Source: an uncultured Poribacteria bacterium
Lineage (GTDB): Bacteria > Poribacteria > WGA-4E > WGA-3G
Assembly: GCA_951812525.1 (NCBI GenBank)
Contig: OX638316.1
Location: forward strand, 434,001-498,000
Direction of reading: 5' to 3'
Length of the DNA: 64,000 bases
The notes under the pieces were generated by a model. That model did not search any database. It saw nothing but the letters and a program-made list of their open reading frames with translations, and had not been told where the DNA came from. The translations under genes were made by a program, and so were the position numbers. This document shows, in pieces, positions 17,127-27,667 of this stretch. How positions within the stretch are numbered: the stretch's first letter is position 1; every line of letters starts with the position of its first letter.

Positions 17127-18251
17127 ATGGATGCAAAAGAATTAACCCAAACTCTCATTGGATACAATACAGTAAGCCCCCGCAGCAACGTTGAAGTCAT
17201 GGAGTTTCTCACTGAGACGTTAGAATCCATTGACTGCGAAGTAGAACAGGTTGAATACAGGGATCCGGCGGGCGTGCTAAAAGTAAACTTGATAGGACGC
17301 AAAGGACGCAATACAGACAAACGCGGGCTGGCACTGCTTGGACACATAGATACCGTTCCTGCTATTGGTTGGTCAATGAATCCGTTTGAGGCACGGATCG
17401 CTGACGGAAAGATGTACGGGAGAGGTAGCTGCGATATGAAAGGCAGCGTCGCCTGTATGATTGAGGTTGCTTCGCGTTACGCAGACTCTGAATTAAACGC
17501 ACCGCTCTATGTAGTCATCACCGCTGATGAAGAGGTGGGTTACTTCGGGGCAAGCGCAGTTGTAGAAAAATCGCAGATGTTCAAGAAACATGGCTTTCCG
17601 CAATACGGTGTCGTCGGCGAACCTACAGAACTGCACGCTGTATATGCCCACAAAGGTGCCGTCCGATTTACCGTTACTGCGCACGGACGCGCAGCGCATA
17701 GCAGCACAGGCGAAGGCGATAATGCAAACCTCAAACTAATCCCATTTCTCGCAGAAATGCGCGAGATTTATCAGGAACTGACATCGGACACCCAGTACTA
17801 CAACGCTGAATTTACACCGCCCTTTACTGATTGGAATATTACGATCAGCGACGGTGAGTGTGCAGCAAATATCACTTCACCACTGAGCGTCTGCAGTATT
17901 AACTACCGTCCAATGCCAGGAGATGATGCACAGGTATGGATAGACCGCGCACGTGAATCGGCTGAAAGACATGAGTTAATATTCGACCTGTACATCAACG
18001 CGCCTCCGGTTCGCACATCCCCAGACGCAGAGATCATCCAAACCGCACTCAAGATTACGGGAGAAACCACTCCCCAAACCGTTGCCTACAGTACTGATGC
18101 TACTGTCTTCGCTCAGCACATGGAGACCGTCATCATCGGACCAGGTAGTATTCGGCAAGCACACACCGTCGATGAATGGATGGCATTAGATCAGTTCCCA
18201 CAAGGTGCTTCGATTTTCAACCAATTCGTGGAACGGCTTTGCGTTGGCTAA
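17127..18251 (+). CDS. M20-family metallopeptidase (ArgE/DapE/ACY1-like)
   Basis: 374 residues. Metal-binding motifs are LGHIDTVPA (His and Asp, about 71-79), GRGSCDMKGSVA (about 97-108), TADEEVGYFGA (catalytic Glu pair, about 132-142) and VGEPTELHAVYAHKG. A dimerisation insert spans about 180-290, and the last ligand His is in RQAHTVDEW. It is a zinc deacetylase or desuccinylase/peptidase; the sequence does not fix whether the substrate is N-acetylornithine, succinyl-DAP or another acyl amino acid. Transcription appears leaderless from the promoter at 17090. Confidence 0.85.
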   Translation: MDAKELTQTLIGYNTVSPRSNVEVMEFLTETLESIDCEVEQVEYRDPAGVLKVNLIGRKGRNTDKRGLALLGHIDTVPAIGWSMNPFEARIADGKMYGRGSCDMKGSVACMIEVASRYADSELNAPLYVVITADEEVGYFGASAVVEKSQMFKKHGFPQYGVVGEPTELHAVYAHKGAVRFTVTAHGRAAHSSTGEGDNANLKLIPFLAEMREIYQELTSDTQYYNAEFTPPFTDWNITISDGECAANITSPLSVCSINYRPMPGDDAQVWIDRARESAERHELIFDLYINAPPVRTSPDAEIIQTALKITGETTPQTVAYSTDATVFAQHMETVIIGPGSIRQAHTVDEWMALDQFPQGASIFNQFVERLCVG

Positions 18252-18354: not shown

Positions 18355-18807
18355 CTATTGAGGGGTTTTACGCATATCAGGGGCATCGAAAAAGACAGCA
18401 TCCGGTTTCACCCACTCCGCTTCACCATCTGCCCACACTTCCCGTTTCCAGATAGGAACAATCTGTTTGAGGCGATCCATTGCATATTTGCATGCTTCAA
18501 ACGCGTCTTTGCGATGTGGTGAAGCGACCGCTACAGCCACACTTACCTCTCCGATCTCCAGTTTCCCAACGCGATGAATCATTGCAACGCGATCAAGTCC
18601 CCATTTCTCCGAGACCTCTTGTGCGATCTCTGCCATTTTCTTCTCTGCCATCGGAGGGTACGACTCATATTCAAGGTGTTTCACCTGCCTGCCATCGGTG
18701 TTATTCCGAACCGTACCAAAGAATAACACGACTGCCCCAGCATCTGGTCCCTCTACCGCTTCACGCACCTCTGCACCCGTAATAACTTCGGTGGTTATTT
18801 TAAACAT
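18355..18807 (-). CDS. moaE: Molybdopterin synthase catalytic subunit
   Basis: 150 residues. Family motifs are GAVVLFFGTVRNNTDGRQVKHLEYESY (about 25-51), WGLDRVAMIHRVGKLEIGEVSVAVAVASPHRKDAFEAC (about 69-106) and the catalytic-lysine segment PIWKREVW (about 117-124). With thiocarboxylated MoaD it converts cPMP to molybdopterin. The start overlaps the moaD stop by 8 bp. Its ribosome site GGAGGA is also the pair of moaD Gly-Gly codons, so the genes are tightly coupled. It supplies cofactor for the Mo enzyme at 24820-28659. Confidence 0.95.
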   Translation of the reverse strand: MFKITTEVITGAEVREAVEGPDAGAVVLFFGTVRNNTDGRQVKHLEYESYPPMAEKKMAEIAQEVSEKWGLDRVAMIHRVGKLEIGEVSVAVAVASPHRKDAFEACKYAMDRLKQIVPIWKREVWADGEAEWVKPDAVFFDAPDMRKTPQ

Positions 18808-19054
18808 CGCATCCTCCCGTCACAGGTGGAATCAGGGCGACCTCATCTCCCTCAGTGAGTTCGGTATTTTCGGTAGCGTATTCCCAATTGACGGCCATTT
18901 GCATCACTTCATAAAACTCAGCGATTTCGGGCCATTCTTCCTCAAGACGTTGTAAAATTGTTCTGACAGTGGCACCGTCTGGCAGGTCCATCTCTTCTTC
19001 AGATCTATCTAACATTTCGTGACATACGGCAAAGTATTTAACTGTGACATTCAT
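18800..19054 (-). CDS. moaD: Molybdopterin synthase sulfur-carrier subunit with residues beyond Gly-Gly
   Basis: 84 residues with a beta-grasp fold: MNVTVKYFAVCHEM, then LPDGATVRTILQRLEEEWPE, and the conserved end VALIPPVTGG at 72-81. Normal MoaD ends in Gly-Gly, which MoeB adenylates; here Cys-Asp-Val follows. The extension exists because the frame continues over the moaE ribosome site and start. Either a protease trims it, as QbsD does for QbsE (Gly-Gly-Cys-Phe), or the protein uses another activation route. Its promoter is at 19110-19138 on the minus strand. Confidence 0.9.
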   Translation of the reverse strand: MNVTVKYFAVCHEMLDRSEEEMDLPDGATVRTILQRLEEEWPEIAEFYEVMQMAVNWEYATENTELTEGDEVALIPPVTGGCDV

Positions 19055-24728: not shown

Positions 24729-24819
24729 GAGAAAAATCGAAAGATAACGAATTGTCCAACCGACGCAGTGAATGTAATGTTAAAATGTTAATTTGAACGC
24801 ACAACTGAAGGAGGCACGC

Positions 24820-25455
24820 ATGTCCGATAAAGAAAAAAAACAGGGGACGAATATCTCGCGCCGGAACTTCTTGAAGGGCGTAGGGACTGGTACTGTTGCC
24901 GCGACGGTCGTACCCAGTGTCCTCATCGGCAGCGAGCAAGCCGCCGAAGCCCAAGAGGGTGGCGCTATTTCCAGTGCGACAATTCAACTGAATATCAATG
25001 AGAAATCGTACGAGGTCGAAGTTGAAGCGCGCACAACACTCTTGACAGTTTTACGGGACGGAATGGATACAAGTGGGAACAACGTTGACTTGACCGGCGC
25101 TAAACTCATTTGCGACCGAGGTGAATGTGGCGGTTGTACCGTTATGGTAGACGGACAGACGGTCTATGCTTGCATGATGCTTGCGATGGATGCGCAAGGC
25201 AAGAAGATAACAACCATCGAAGGATTAGCAAACGGAGACGACTTGCACCCGGTTCAGGATGCATTTATCCAACATGATGCCCTGATGTGCGGATTCTGCA
25301 CACCCGGTTTCGTCGTCTCATCCGCAGCACTGTTGAACGAGAACAAAACACCGTCGCTCGATGAAATCAAAGACGGTTTGTCTGGCAATACATGTCGCTG
25401 CGGAACATATCCGTTCATCTTTGATGCTGTCAAAACCGCATCACGGAAGATGTGA
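24820..25455 (+). CDS. Periplasmic aldehyde oxidoreductase, [2Fe-2S] subunit (PaoA-like) with Tat signal
   Basis: 211 residues from ATG at 24820, 5 nt after AAGGAGG. The N-terminus carries a Tat signal (SRRNFLKGVGTGTVAATVVPSVL). Two iron-sulfur domains follow: plant-ferredoxin type CDRGECGGCTVMVDGQTVYAC, then the four-helix domain CGFCTPGFV and CRCGTYPF. This is the small electron-transfer subunit of xanthine-oxidase-family enzymes. A twin-arginine signal on it is characteristic of E. coli PaoA (YagT). The Mo and FAD subunits have no signal and would be exported with it. Confidence 0.9.
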   Translation: MSDKEKKQGTNISRRNFLKGVGTGTVAATVVPSVLIGSEQAAEAQEGGAISSATIQLNINEKSYEVEVEARTTLLTVLRDGMDTSGNNVDLTGAKLICDRGECGGCTVMVDGQTVYACMMLAMDAQGKKITTIEGLANGDDLHPVQDAFIQHDALMCGFCTPGFVVSSAALLNENKTPSLDEIKDGLSGNTCRCGTYPFIFDAVKTASRKM

Positions 25456-25546
25456 GTCCTATTGCTTTACTTGAGAGCGAGCCTCGGCTTGCGAAACGCA
25501 GCAGGCTGCCGTTTTATAGGAGCAGTCGGCTATAGGAGGAACAGAC

Positions 25547-27667
25547 ATGGCATCATGGGGAGAAGCAAGTGAATCTCGTCTTATTGGAAAACGGATAACG
25601 CGTTTATCTGGTAAAGACAAAGTCACTGGAAAAGCGAAATATACTTTTGACATCAATCGACCGGGGATGCTTTATGGACGTATCTTGCGTTCAGACGTTG
25701 CACACGCAACCGTTATGGGCATTGATATGAGTGAGGCAGAAGCACTACCCGGCGTCAAAGCAGTTATACCGCTCATTGAAATCGGAAATAAACTCCGCTA
25801 CCAAGGTCAAGAAATTGCCGCTGTTGCAGCGGAAACGGATGACATCGCCAAAGACGCGATTCGACTCATTCATGTTGACCTAGAGGAGTTACCTCACGTC
25901 GTCACAGAAGCAGACGCGATGGCGGATGGCGCACCGCAAATCCGAGACGATTGGGCGAGCAATCAGAGCGAACCTAATATCAGAGAAGACGGTAACCTTG
26001 AAGCAGGATTTGCCGAAGCCGCTGTTGAGGTAGAAGCTACCTACCATACCGCAGTTCAGACACACGTTTGTTTGGAAACACACGGACACGTCGCCGAATG
26101 GGAAGATGAACAAAACTTGACTGTTTGGGCATCTACACAAGGCGTTTTCGGGGTCCGTAACGATTTCGCCCAACACTTTGAGCTTCCAGCAAACCAAGTC
26201 AGAGTTATTACAGAACACATGGGCGGCGGATTTGGAAGCAAGTTCAGTCCCGGTGTAGAAGGACACGCCGCAGCTGAATTGTCACGTATCAGCGGGAAAG
26301 CCGTGAAGTTAATGCTAACCCGTAAAGCCGAGCACCTCGTCGCTGGCAATCGTCCCTCAATGACGCAGCATGTCCGCGCAGGCGCGACCCGCGACGGACG
26401 ACTCATTGCTTACGATATGAAAGGCCACGGCACGGGTGGTATCTCCAGTGGTGCAGGTTTCCAAGCACCCTACGTCTATCACGTTCCAAATTTGCGCACT
26501 GAAAAAGTGAATGTCGCCACTAATGCAGGGAACCAACGCGCCATGCGTGCCCCAGGACATCCACAAGCCTCATTTGCGATGGACTCTTTGATGGATGAAC
26601 TTGCCGAGAAACTCGGGATGAATCCCTTAGAGTTCCGGCGTATTAATGATGCAAACGAGGTGCGTCAAGCACAATACACCCTCGGTGCCCAAGAGATTGG
26701 ATGGCATCGCCGCAATAGCGTCGCTGGCTCAGGCACAGGTGTGAAGAAACGGGGTATGGGTCTTGGAAGCGGTCTATGGGGTGGCGGCGGCGGACGTGGC
26801 ACGGAAGCACGTGTTACGATCAACTCCGATGGTACTGTCGAAGCCGTCACTGGAACACAGGACATCGGCACTGGTGTACGGACCGTCATTGCAATTATTG
26901 TCGCTGAAGAGCTTGGACTCGCCCCCACTGACATCATGGTAACGGTTGGTGATAGCCAACCGGGACTACCGTCTGGTGGTAGTGGTGGCAGTCAAACAAC
27001 TCCATCCGTTGCGCCGGTCATCAAAACAGCAGCAGCAGCGGCAAAACAGAAGTTGTTTGAACGCATTGCTCCCTTGCTCGATGCCCCTGTTGGCGATCTT
27101 CGCGTCGGTACCGGGACGATTTATGTCGTTTCTGACAGAACCAAGACAATTACGTGGCAACAGGCGGCAGGGCAACTCGGTATGGAAAGCATCAGTGAAG
27201 GTGGACAATGGGATGAAGAGCTCCGCCAAAATGGTGCGGCTGGCACGCAGTTCGCTGAAGTCGAAGTTGATACCGAGACAGGTGCTCTCAAAGTTATCAA
27301 GATTGTCGCCGTTCAAGATTGCGGACTGGCAATTAACCGCCTGACCACGGAGAGCCAGATTAATGGTGGCGTCATCATGGGATTGGGTCAAGCTATACTC
27401 GAAGAGCGGTTCATGGATCCATATACCGGACGGATGCTCAACGCGAATCTTGAGGATTACAAAGTCCCTGGAACTTTTGAGATTCCTGAGATTAAATCCA
27501 TCGTTTTCGATACGCACCGTAAAGTTACAGGTGTCGGTGAACCTCCATGTATCCCAACACCCGGGGCGATCGCTAACGCTGTTTATAACGCAATTGGTGT
27601 GCGAATTCGAGAACTGCCGATAACATCCGATAAGATTCTCACCGCGCTTGTCGAGAAGAAGGCATAA
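25547..27667 (+). CDS. Molybdenum-binding subunit of the PaoABC-like aldehyde oxidoreductase
   Basis: 706 residues. The aldehyde oxidase/xanthine dehydrogenase hammerhead domain (about 22-130; KVTGKAKYTFDINRPGMLYGRILRSDVAHA) precedes the Mo-cofactor domain with GGGFGSKFSPGVEGHAAAELSR (about 225-246), GNQRAMRAPGHPQASFAMDSLMDELAEKLG (about 328-357), TGTQDIGTGVRTVIAIIVAEELGL and the C-terminal catalytic-Glu motif GVGEPPCIPTPGAIANAV. It oxidises aldehydes or N-heterocycles at the Mo centre; the substrate is unknown. A GGAGGAAC ribosome site precedes ATG. Order here is Fe-S, Mo, FAD, whereas E. coli has Fe-S, FAD, Mo. Confidence 0.9.
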   Translation: MASWGEASESRLIGKRITRLSGKDKVTGKAKYTFDINRPGMLYGRILRSDVAHATVMGIDMSEAEALPGVKAVIPLIEIGNKLRYQGQEIAAVAAETDDIAKDAIRLIHVDLEELPHVVTEADAMADGAPQIRDDWASNQSEPNIREDGNLEAGFAEAAVEVEATYHTAVQTHVCLETHGHVAEWEDEQNLTVWASTQGVFGVRNDFAQHFELPANQVRVITEHMGGGFGSKFSPGVEGHAAAELSRISGKAVKLMLTRKAEHLVAGNRPSMTQHVRAGATRDGRLIAYDMKGHGTGGISSGAGFQAPYVYHVPNLRTEKVNVATNAGNQRAMRAPGHPQASFAMDSLMDELAEKLGMNPLEFRRINDANEVRQAQYTLGAQEIGWHRRNSVAGSGTGVKKRGMGLGSGLWGGGGGRGTEARVTINSDGTVEAVTGTQDIGTGVRTVIAIIVAEELGLAPTDIMVTVGDSQPGLPSGGSGGSQTTPSVAPVIKTAAAAAKQKLFERIAPLLDAPVGDLRVGTGTIYVVSDRTKTITWQQAAGQLGMESISEGGQWDEELRQNGAAGTQFAEVEVDTETGALKVIKIVAVQDCGLAINRLTTESQINGGVIMGLGQAILEERFMDPYTGRMLNANLEDYKVPGTFEIPEIKSIVFDTHRKVTGVGEPPCIPTPGAIANAVYNAIGVRIRELPITSDKILTALVEKKA

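Follow-up and report, generated by a model that had tools for sequence, protein, structure and literature searches.

The moaD gene described here raises the question of how a molybdopterin synthase small subunit could come to end in Gly-Gly when its gene does not stop there. It lies on the minus strand at positions 18800..19054 of the window (the whole 64,000 nt stretch analysed, from an uncultured Poribacteria bacterium), and encodes an 84 aa protein ending PPVTGGCDV-stop. The product scores 62.5 bits against Pfam ThiS and 74.2 bits against the NCBIfam moaD profile TIGR01682 (cut-off 66.15), and its PDB matches, 1vjk and E. coli MoaD 1fm0, confirm a ThiS/MoaD beta-grasp sequence. It adjoins moaE (18355..18807, minus strand), which encodes the 150 aa large subunit of the synthase (Pfam MoaE, 153.9 bits), a pairing that is kept across the phylum. 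On the minus strand the junction between the two reads GGAGGA TGCG ATG TTT AAA. The GGA GGA at 18812..18817 provides both the terminal Gly-Gly codons of moaD and the GGAGG ribosome site of moaE; it is followed by the tail codons TGC GAT GTT, for Cys-Asp-Val, at 18803..18811, with the moaE ATG at 18807-18805 and the moaD TAA ending at 18800. The genes hence overlap by 8 bp (18800..18807), in which moaD ...T GTT TAA is moaE ATG TTT AA, the moaD stop being built out of moaE codons 2-3 (TTTAA). MoaD carries three extra residues because this stop sits within the moaE start, and as encoded it lacks a C-terminal Gly-Gly, which only the trimming of Cys-Asp-Val would give. The VTGGCDV-stop ending and the coordinates 18800-18817 in the first-pass annotation proved exact when the sequence was reread, and the 8-bp overlap (18807-18800) was seen again. 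Its assignment of the Gly-Gly codons as the moaE ribosome site also stands, except that the ATG lies 4 nt from GGAGGA and not 5, the latter being the distance from the core GGAGG.

Among non-fused Poribacteria moaD genes, the first terminal Gly codon is GGA or GGG in 69/72, against 307/836 of the other Gly codons in the same moaD and moaE genes (Fisher p ~1e-24, with related rows counted singly); the second is mixed, being GGT in 22, GGA in 19, GGC in 19 and GGG in 12. The start of moaE falls exactly 4 nt past the Gly-Gly codons in 67 of these 72 loci, 63 of them tailed and four with a direct stop. Given the codon bias at the first Gly and the fixed spacing of moaE, this duty as a ribosome site looks both selected and old.

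The Poribacteria sample comprised 84 genomes, six of which lack moaE; all 78 moaE loci in the others were read. At these loci moaD is tailed in 64, stops directly after Gly-Gly in eight and is fused to moaE, with an internal Gly-Gly, in four (L072 in G006, L080 in G008, L082 in G007 and L083 in G024); in G025 (L078) and G026 (L068), unlike the other moaE-bearing genomes of the phylum, no moaD precedes moaE. An assembly error was ruled out as the source of the tail, which is carried by 64 of the 78 moaE-bearing genomes. The tail is X-Asp-Val or X-Asn-Val in 61/64 cases: CDV 21 times, SDV six, CNV, LDV and TDV five each, NNV and QDV four each, KNV three, FDV, IDV and RDV two each, and KDV and RNV once each, the tails off this pattern being SYV, RDVQDYC and VCAGLP. 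The Asp/Asn-Val-stop portion is moaE ATGTTTAA in the other frame, '(R)ATG TTT AA' as seen from the moaD frame; in G046, where moaE has TTC AAG, the tail is extended to RDVQDYC.

The first tail residue is of 11 kinds in the phylum and has changed 22 times or more over the tree, with Cys the most frequent (26/64). This frequency favours the idea of a regulated pro-peptide, or of a job of its own for the tail, for example as a Cys sulfur relay or a metal ligand. Set against the variety of residues, the number of changes, the loss of the tail in sister genomes and the determination of residues 2-3 by moaE codons, such a role is very improbable. The Cys was rejected as a functional residue since 11 kinds occupy its position.

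Both states of the moaD end occur within genus g8. Four tailed genomes have GGT, then CAA, CAG or CGA, then GAT GTT; two direct-stop genomes have GGT TAA GATGTT with the moaE start unmoved, such that a single base (CAA to TAA) lies between tail and no tail. With the two states one base apart in one genus, at the same moaE spacing, the tail is, as judged from these sequences, a dispensable by-product, for the loss or gain of which one substitution suffices. On the phylum tree, many branches of which are weak, there have been at least five changes between the tailed or fused state and the direct one. Economy of sequence, which had been proposed as the benefit of the overlap, was rejected as the cause of the tail, because the direct-stop relatives G019 and G020 keep the spacing and the moaE start. 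Relatives that share the overlap yet have a stop codon immediately following Gly-Gly had also been named as evidence against trimming; G019 and G020 do share the moaE start, but their moaD ends before it. They make the tail optional, and trimming is not thereby refuted.

A Gly-Gly end might also be produced without a protease, through frameshifting or early release of the polypeptide at the internal ribosome site, as Shine-Dalgarno-like sequence inside codons can favour pausing. However, neither alternative frame has a stop just past Gly-Gly, the -1 frame continuing ATG CGA TGT and the +1 frame GCG ATG TTT, and the relationship with JAMM proteases described below applies equally to tails of other geometry and to whole MoaD-MoaE fusions. 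This route was rejected on the absence of such stops, and we give it scarcely any credence.

The genome, a single contig of 5.06 Mb with 96% completeness, encodes one Prok-JAB protein only, a JAMM metalloprotease (G000:C1:1686658-1687011; protein at L001:1465-1938) scoring 66.5 bits against Pfam Prok-JAB (cut-off 25). The first-pass annotation had anticipated a dedicated trimming protease, perhaps encoded near moeB or moaA. The JAMM/Mov34-type protein found is of a type known to free MoaD from MoaD-MoaE, but it is not dedicated, and its gene is near neither; it is intact, 1.2 Mb away from moaDE, and follows cysH and a CysO-like carrier gene with the tail RNLS (carrier and JAMM together, L001:1122-1938). 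The zinc site E...HxHPx(6)SxxD is present, and E29, H95, H97, S105 and D108 are invariant in 25/25 aligned Poribacteria JAMMs; a regular expression for the motif took 28/31 JAMMs, the other three being PEECCG, with the motif kept by eye. An AlphaFold2 model (pLDDT 91.9) has an MPN fold and, among PDB structures, matches best P. furiosus JAMM1 in complex with the ubiquitin-like SAMP2 (TM 0.70/0.83). A CysO-like carrier is encoded on the same strand as the JAMM at 25/31 Poribacteria JAMM loci, with a tail in 21 (12 different tails) and without one in four. In G019, which has a direct-stop moaD, the JAMM frame (G019:C111:19046-19387) holds one in-frame TAA, which may be an error or decay.

The present genome has four ThiS-family carriers: MoaD (GG-CDV), the CysO-like protein (AIAGG-RNLS), an xdh-linked carrier (GG-TT) and ThiS, which stops at GG. 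Two of the three siblings of MoaD are hence tailed. We infer, with fair confidence, both a cut and its enzyme: the genome's shared JAMM probably trims Cys-Asp-Val from MoaD before activation. With the moaE ribosome site fixed in the Gly-Gly codons and the ATG 4 nt later, any non-stop codon after Gly-Gly would let moaD continue to the TTTAA stop in moaE codons 2-3. The resulting MoaD precursor, with three extra residues, would be cut after Gly-Gly by the sole JAMM, and trimmed MoaD would then be adenylated and thiocarboxylated by an E1, for which the genome offers two candidates, MoeB and a rhodanese-MoeB. The same JAMM probably also processes the CysO-like carrier (RNLS), and perhaps the xdh-linked one (TT). 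If a JAMM clips after Gly-Gly, loss of the stop would be cheap, and tails would therefore be expected to drift, come and go. Untrimmed MoaD would presumably be inactive.

Short tails of this kind have a parallel in thioquinolobactin synthesis, where the Cys-Phe tail after the Gly-Gly of QbsE is trimmed by the JAMM QbsD; that carrier differs from MoaD in serving a siderophore and in having its protease in the same cluster. By analogy, MoaD would behave as a precursor of the QbsE or the MoaD-MoaE type, the encoded form missing one textbook trait, the Gly-Gly end, which trimming could restore. In the passages of the D. radiodurans study consulted, DRJAMM (DR0402) frees MoaD from MoaD-MoaE (DR2607), is needed for this in vivo, and cPMP accumulates without it (PMC8832034). 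The Gly-Gly there, as here, is not C-terminal, and a JAMM releases it, as is proposed for Poribacteria; unlike that system, as those passages present it, in which a whole fusion is cut, the Poribacteria tripeptide arises from a start/stop overlap and the JAMM lies beside a CysO-like carrier. M. tuberculosis MoaX similarly holds the MoaD Gly-Gly within a longer chain, although as a fusion; it is cut between Gly82 and Ser83, as its activity requires, by a protease not named in the excerpts of that paper used here (PMC4326299). Haloferax HvJAMM1, according to parts of its description, converts a SAMP1-MoaE fusion to active MPT synthase, and resembles the proposed enzyme in freeing the MoaD-like SAMP1; unlike it, HvJAMM1 is archaeal and was tested on linear fusions and isopeptide conjugates (PMC4443979). 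In the CysO/Mec+ cysteine pathway, as outlined in portions of PMC3227635, Mec+ takes cysteine off CysO; the adjacency of carrier and JAMM genes is repeated at L001, here adjoining cysH, where unlike CysO, as those portions describe it, the carrier has an encoded tail of its own. Iyer, Burroughs and Aravind proposed in 2006 that JAB proteins free ThiS/MoaD from fusions, so that the C-terminus becomes available for sulfur transfer (PMC1779556). Unlike the passages of that paper drawn on here, the present analysis treats short tails, the start/stop overlap and the cross-genome association with JAMM (PMC1779556).

MoaD ends were compared with the presence of JAMM over 242 genomes in four sets: Poribacteria, a mixed set of 44 genomes of many phyla reached via MoaE, Chloroflexota and Armatimonadota. 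Genes with a tail or fusion were classed as extended and those stopping right after Gly-Gly as direct; JAMM was called at 40 bits or above, since weaker rows were mostly RadC-size frames (judged by size only). A JAMM was found in 167/175 extended genomes against 29/67 direct ones, giving 167 with and 8 without for the extended state and 29 and 38 for the direct (Fisher 1.8e-18; stratified by set, Mantel-Haenszel p 4.8e-12). For short tails by themselves the counts were 106 with and 2 without, against the same 29 and 38. By set, the numbers with and without JAMM were 66/2 for extended and 6/2 for direct Poribacteria (p 0.053 alone; 63 of the 64 tailed genomes had a JAMM), 14/3 and 5/22 in the mixed set, 75/2 and 10/9 in Chloroflexota, and 12/1 and 8/5 in Armatimonadota (p 0.16 alone). 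A strict control on the tree, restricted to firm branches, left 13 independent pairs, of which about 5 were for, 0.5 against and 7.5 not differing (median p 0.125). The association of tail with JAMM is hence strong by count and has the same direction in every set, but is under-powered in the strictest test; as JAMM is also present in 29/67 direct genomes, it is one-way.

The mixed set derives from 80 loci, from which nine Poribacteria, already sampled, were left out and 27 with no profile-found moaD on the strand were dropped. In Chloroflexota moaE was present in 123/151 genomes, of which 110 were read, the 13 unread all having a JAMM above 40 bits; the 110 included three genomes of the mixed set, and among the remaining 107 there were 11 in which moaD was not found. 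Of the last 20 Chloroflexota regions, seven had been chosen because a JAMM was absent from their genomes, and with these omitted the figures were 75/1 against 10/5 (p 0.00035). In Armatimonadota moaE was present in 32/61 genomes and 30 were read; moaD was not found in three, and one, G114, belonged to the mixed set as well. JAMM absences were entered by hand, and outside Poribacteria they are soft because genome completeness was not given there; at the curated line of about 25 bits (hand-entered, approximate) the counts were 169/6 and 35/32, and the result holds.

The extended genes of other phyla vary in form: Chloroflexota tails, among them A, AA, C, QGCLR and RSDDV, are 1 to 16 residues long and stand alongside 43 fusions, and three Armatimonadota share the Poribacteria layout, with GGAGG then ATGTTTGA at the same spacing and the tails ADV, AHV and CDV. 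The Armatimonadota loci are L187 and L340 (G114), L346 and L348, one of which has the same 17-base stretch, GGAGGATGCGATGTTTG, and the tail CDV.

These counts bear on whether the tail simply stays on, with MoaD working either in its presence or with no free Gly-Gly end. Removal is inferred, and short tails are tolerated in 64/76 readable Poribacteria genes, as this would predict; however, harmless tails should be equally common without JAMM, and were seen in only 2/40 JAMM-less genomes with a direct or tailed moaD. Furthermore, in the sections of PMC4326299 consulted, adenylation and thiocarboxylation require a free terminal Gly in E. coli as well as in MoaX, which has no activity when left uncut. 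We therefore regard retention of the tail as quite improbable.

A second alternative retains trimming but assigns it to another peptidase, a carboxypeptidase or housekeeping protease, leaving the JAMM to serve the CysO-like carrier alone. Eight extended genomes had no JAMM at the 40-bit line: G058 and G114, both with GG-CDV, which favour another enzyme, and the fusions G006, G119, G125, G182, G256 and G335. G058 is 92% complete and 9% contaminated, and G006 is 64% complete; a second JAB profile run over these eight genomes gave one match, a 250-aa frame in G119. The exceptions may reflect draft-genome gaps or another protease. A candidate is the convergent M20 gene at 17127-18251 of the window, which lies beside moaE in 47/77 other Poribacteria moaE loci; the M20 family includes carboxypeptidases. 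However, the best score of its product is to acetylornithine deacetylase (ArgE-like), the tailed loci L015 and L018 have no M20 gene alongside (1.5 kb flank), and there is no obvious reason for an exopeptidase to halt at Gly-Gly. As it is the JAMM that fusions and tails accompany across phyla, another peptidase seems unlikely, although less so than retention of the tail.

Trimming by the JAMM suggests a more general relationship, on which our opinion is evenly divided: that possession of a JAMM makes the stop after Gly-Gly near neutral, such that carriers repeatedly gain, change or lose tails or become fused, bacteria without one mostly stop at Gly-Gly, and a single JAMM matures several carriers, linking the supply of cysteine to that of the molybdenum cofactor. 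Release from fusions by JAMM proteins is known; what would be new are short tails dictated by an overlap, and the relaxation by a JAMM of the MoaD stop position. Within the open-licence literature, at the level of titles and the starts of abstracts, we met neither MoaD tails of this short kind determined by the overlap with moaE nor surveys comparing how MoaD ends with the presence of JAMM. The C-terminus encoded in moaD could then serve to indicate JAMM activity, a general and testable rule that predicts a molybdenum-cofactor role for JAMMs in cysteine-type gene clusters. A tailed moaD would also be predicted not to function where the host has no suitable JAMM, much as MoaX is non-functional in E. 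coli in the passages seen of PMC3227635. The eight JAMM-less extended genomes are the places where another protease may act.

Several further features of this genome relate to the cofactor and its carriers. The gene for the xdh-linked carrier (L005:1477-1743, GG-TT) directly follows one for a xanthine/aldehyde oxidase-like enzyme. The rhodanese-MoeB E1 (L007:1111-2298; C1 ~4,354,050-4,355,240) has an in-frame UGA at the place of the catalytic cysteine (VPS-U-SEAG), and the same genome has a tRNA-Sec above the gathering score; on this reading frame it is likely to be a selenoprotein MoeB, a family reported earlier (PMC1088965). A quick fold of the stretch after the UGA gave no clear SECIS and no special hairpin (z -0.39). 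Within the window itself, approximately 6 kb from moaDE, a xanthine/aldehyde oxidase-like enzyme with a Tat-type 2Fe-2S subunit and a Mo-binding subunit is encoded at 24793-27667, and is likely to use the molybdenum cofactor.
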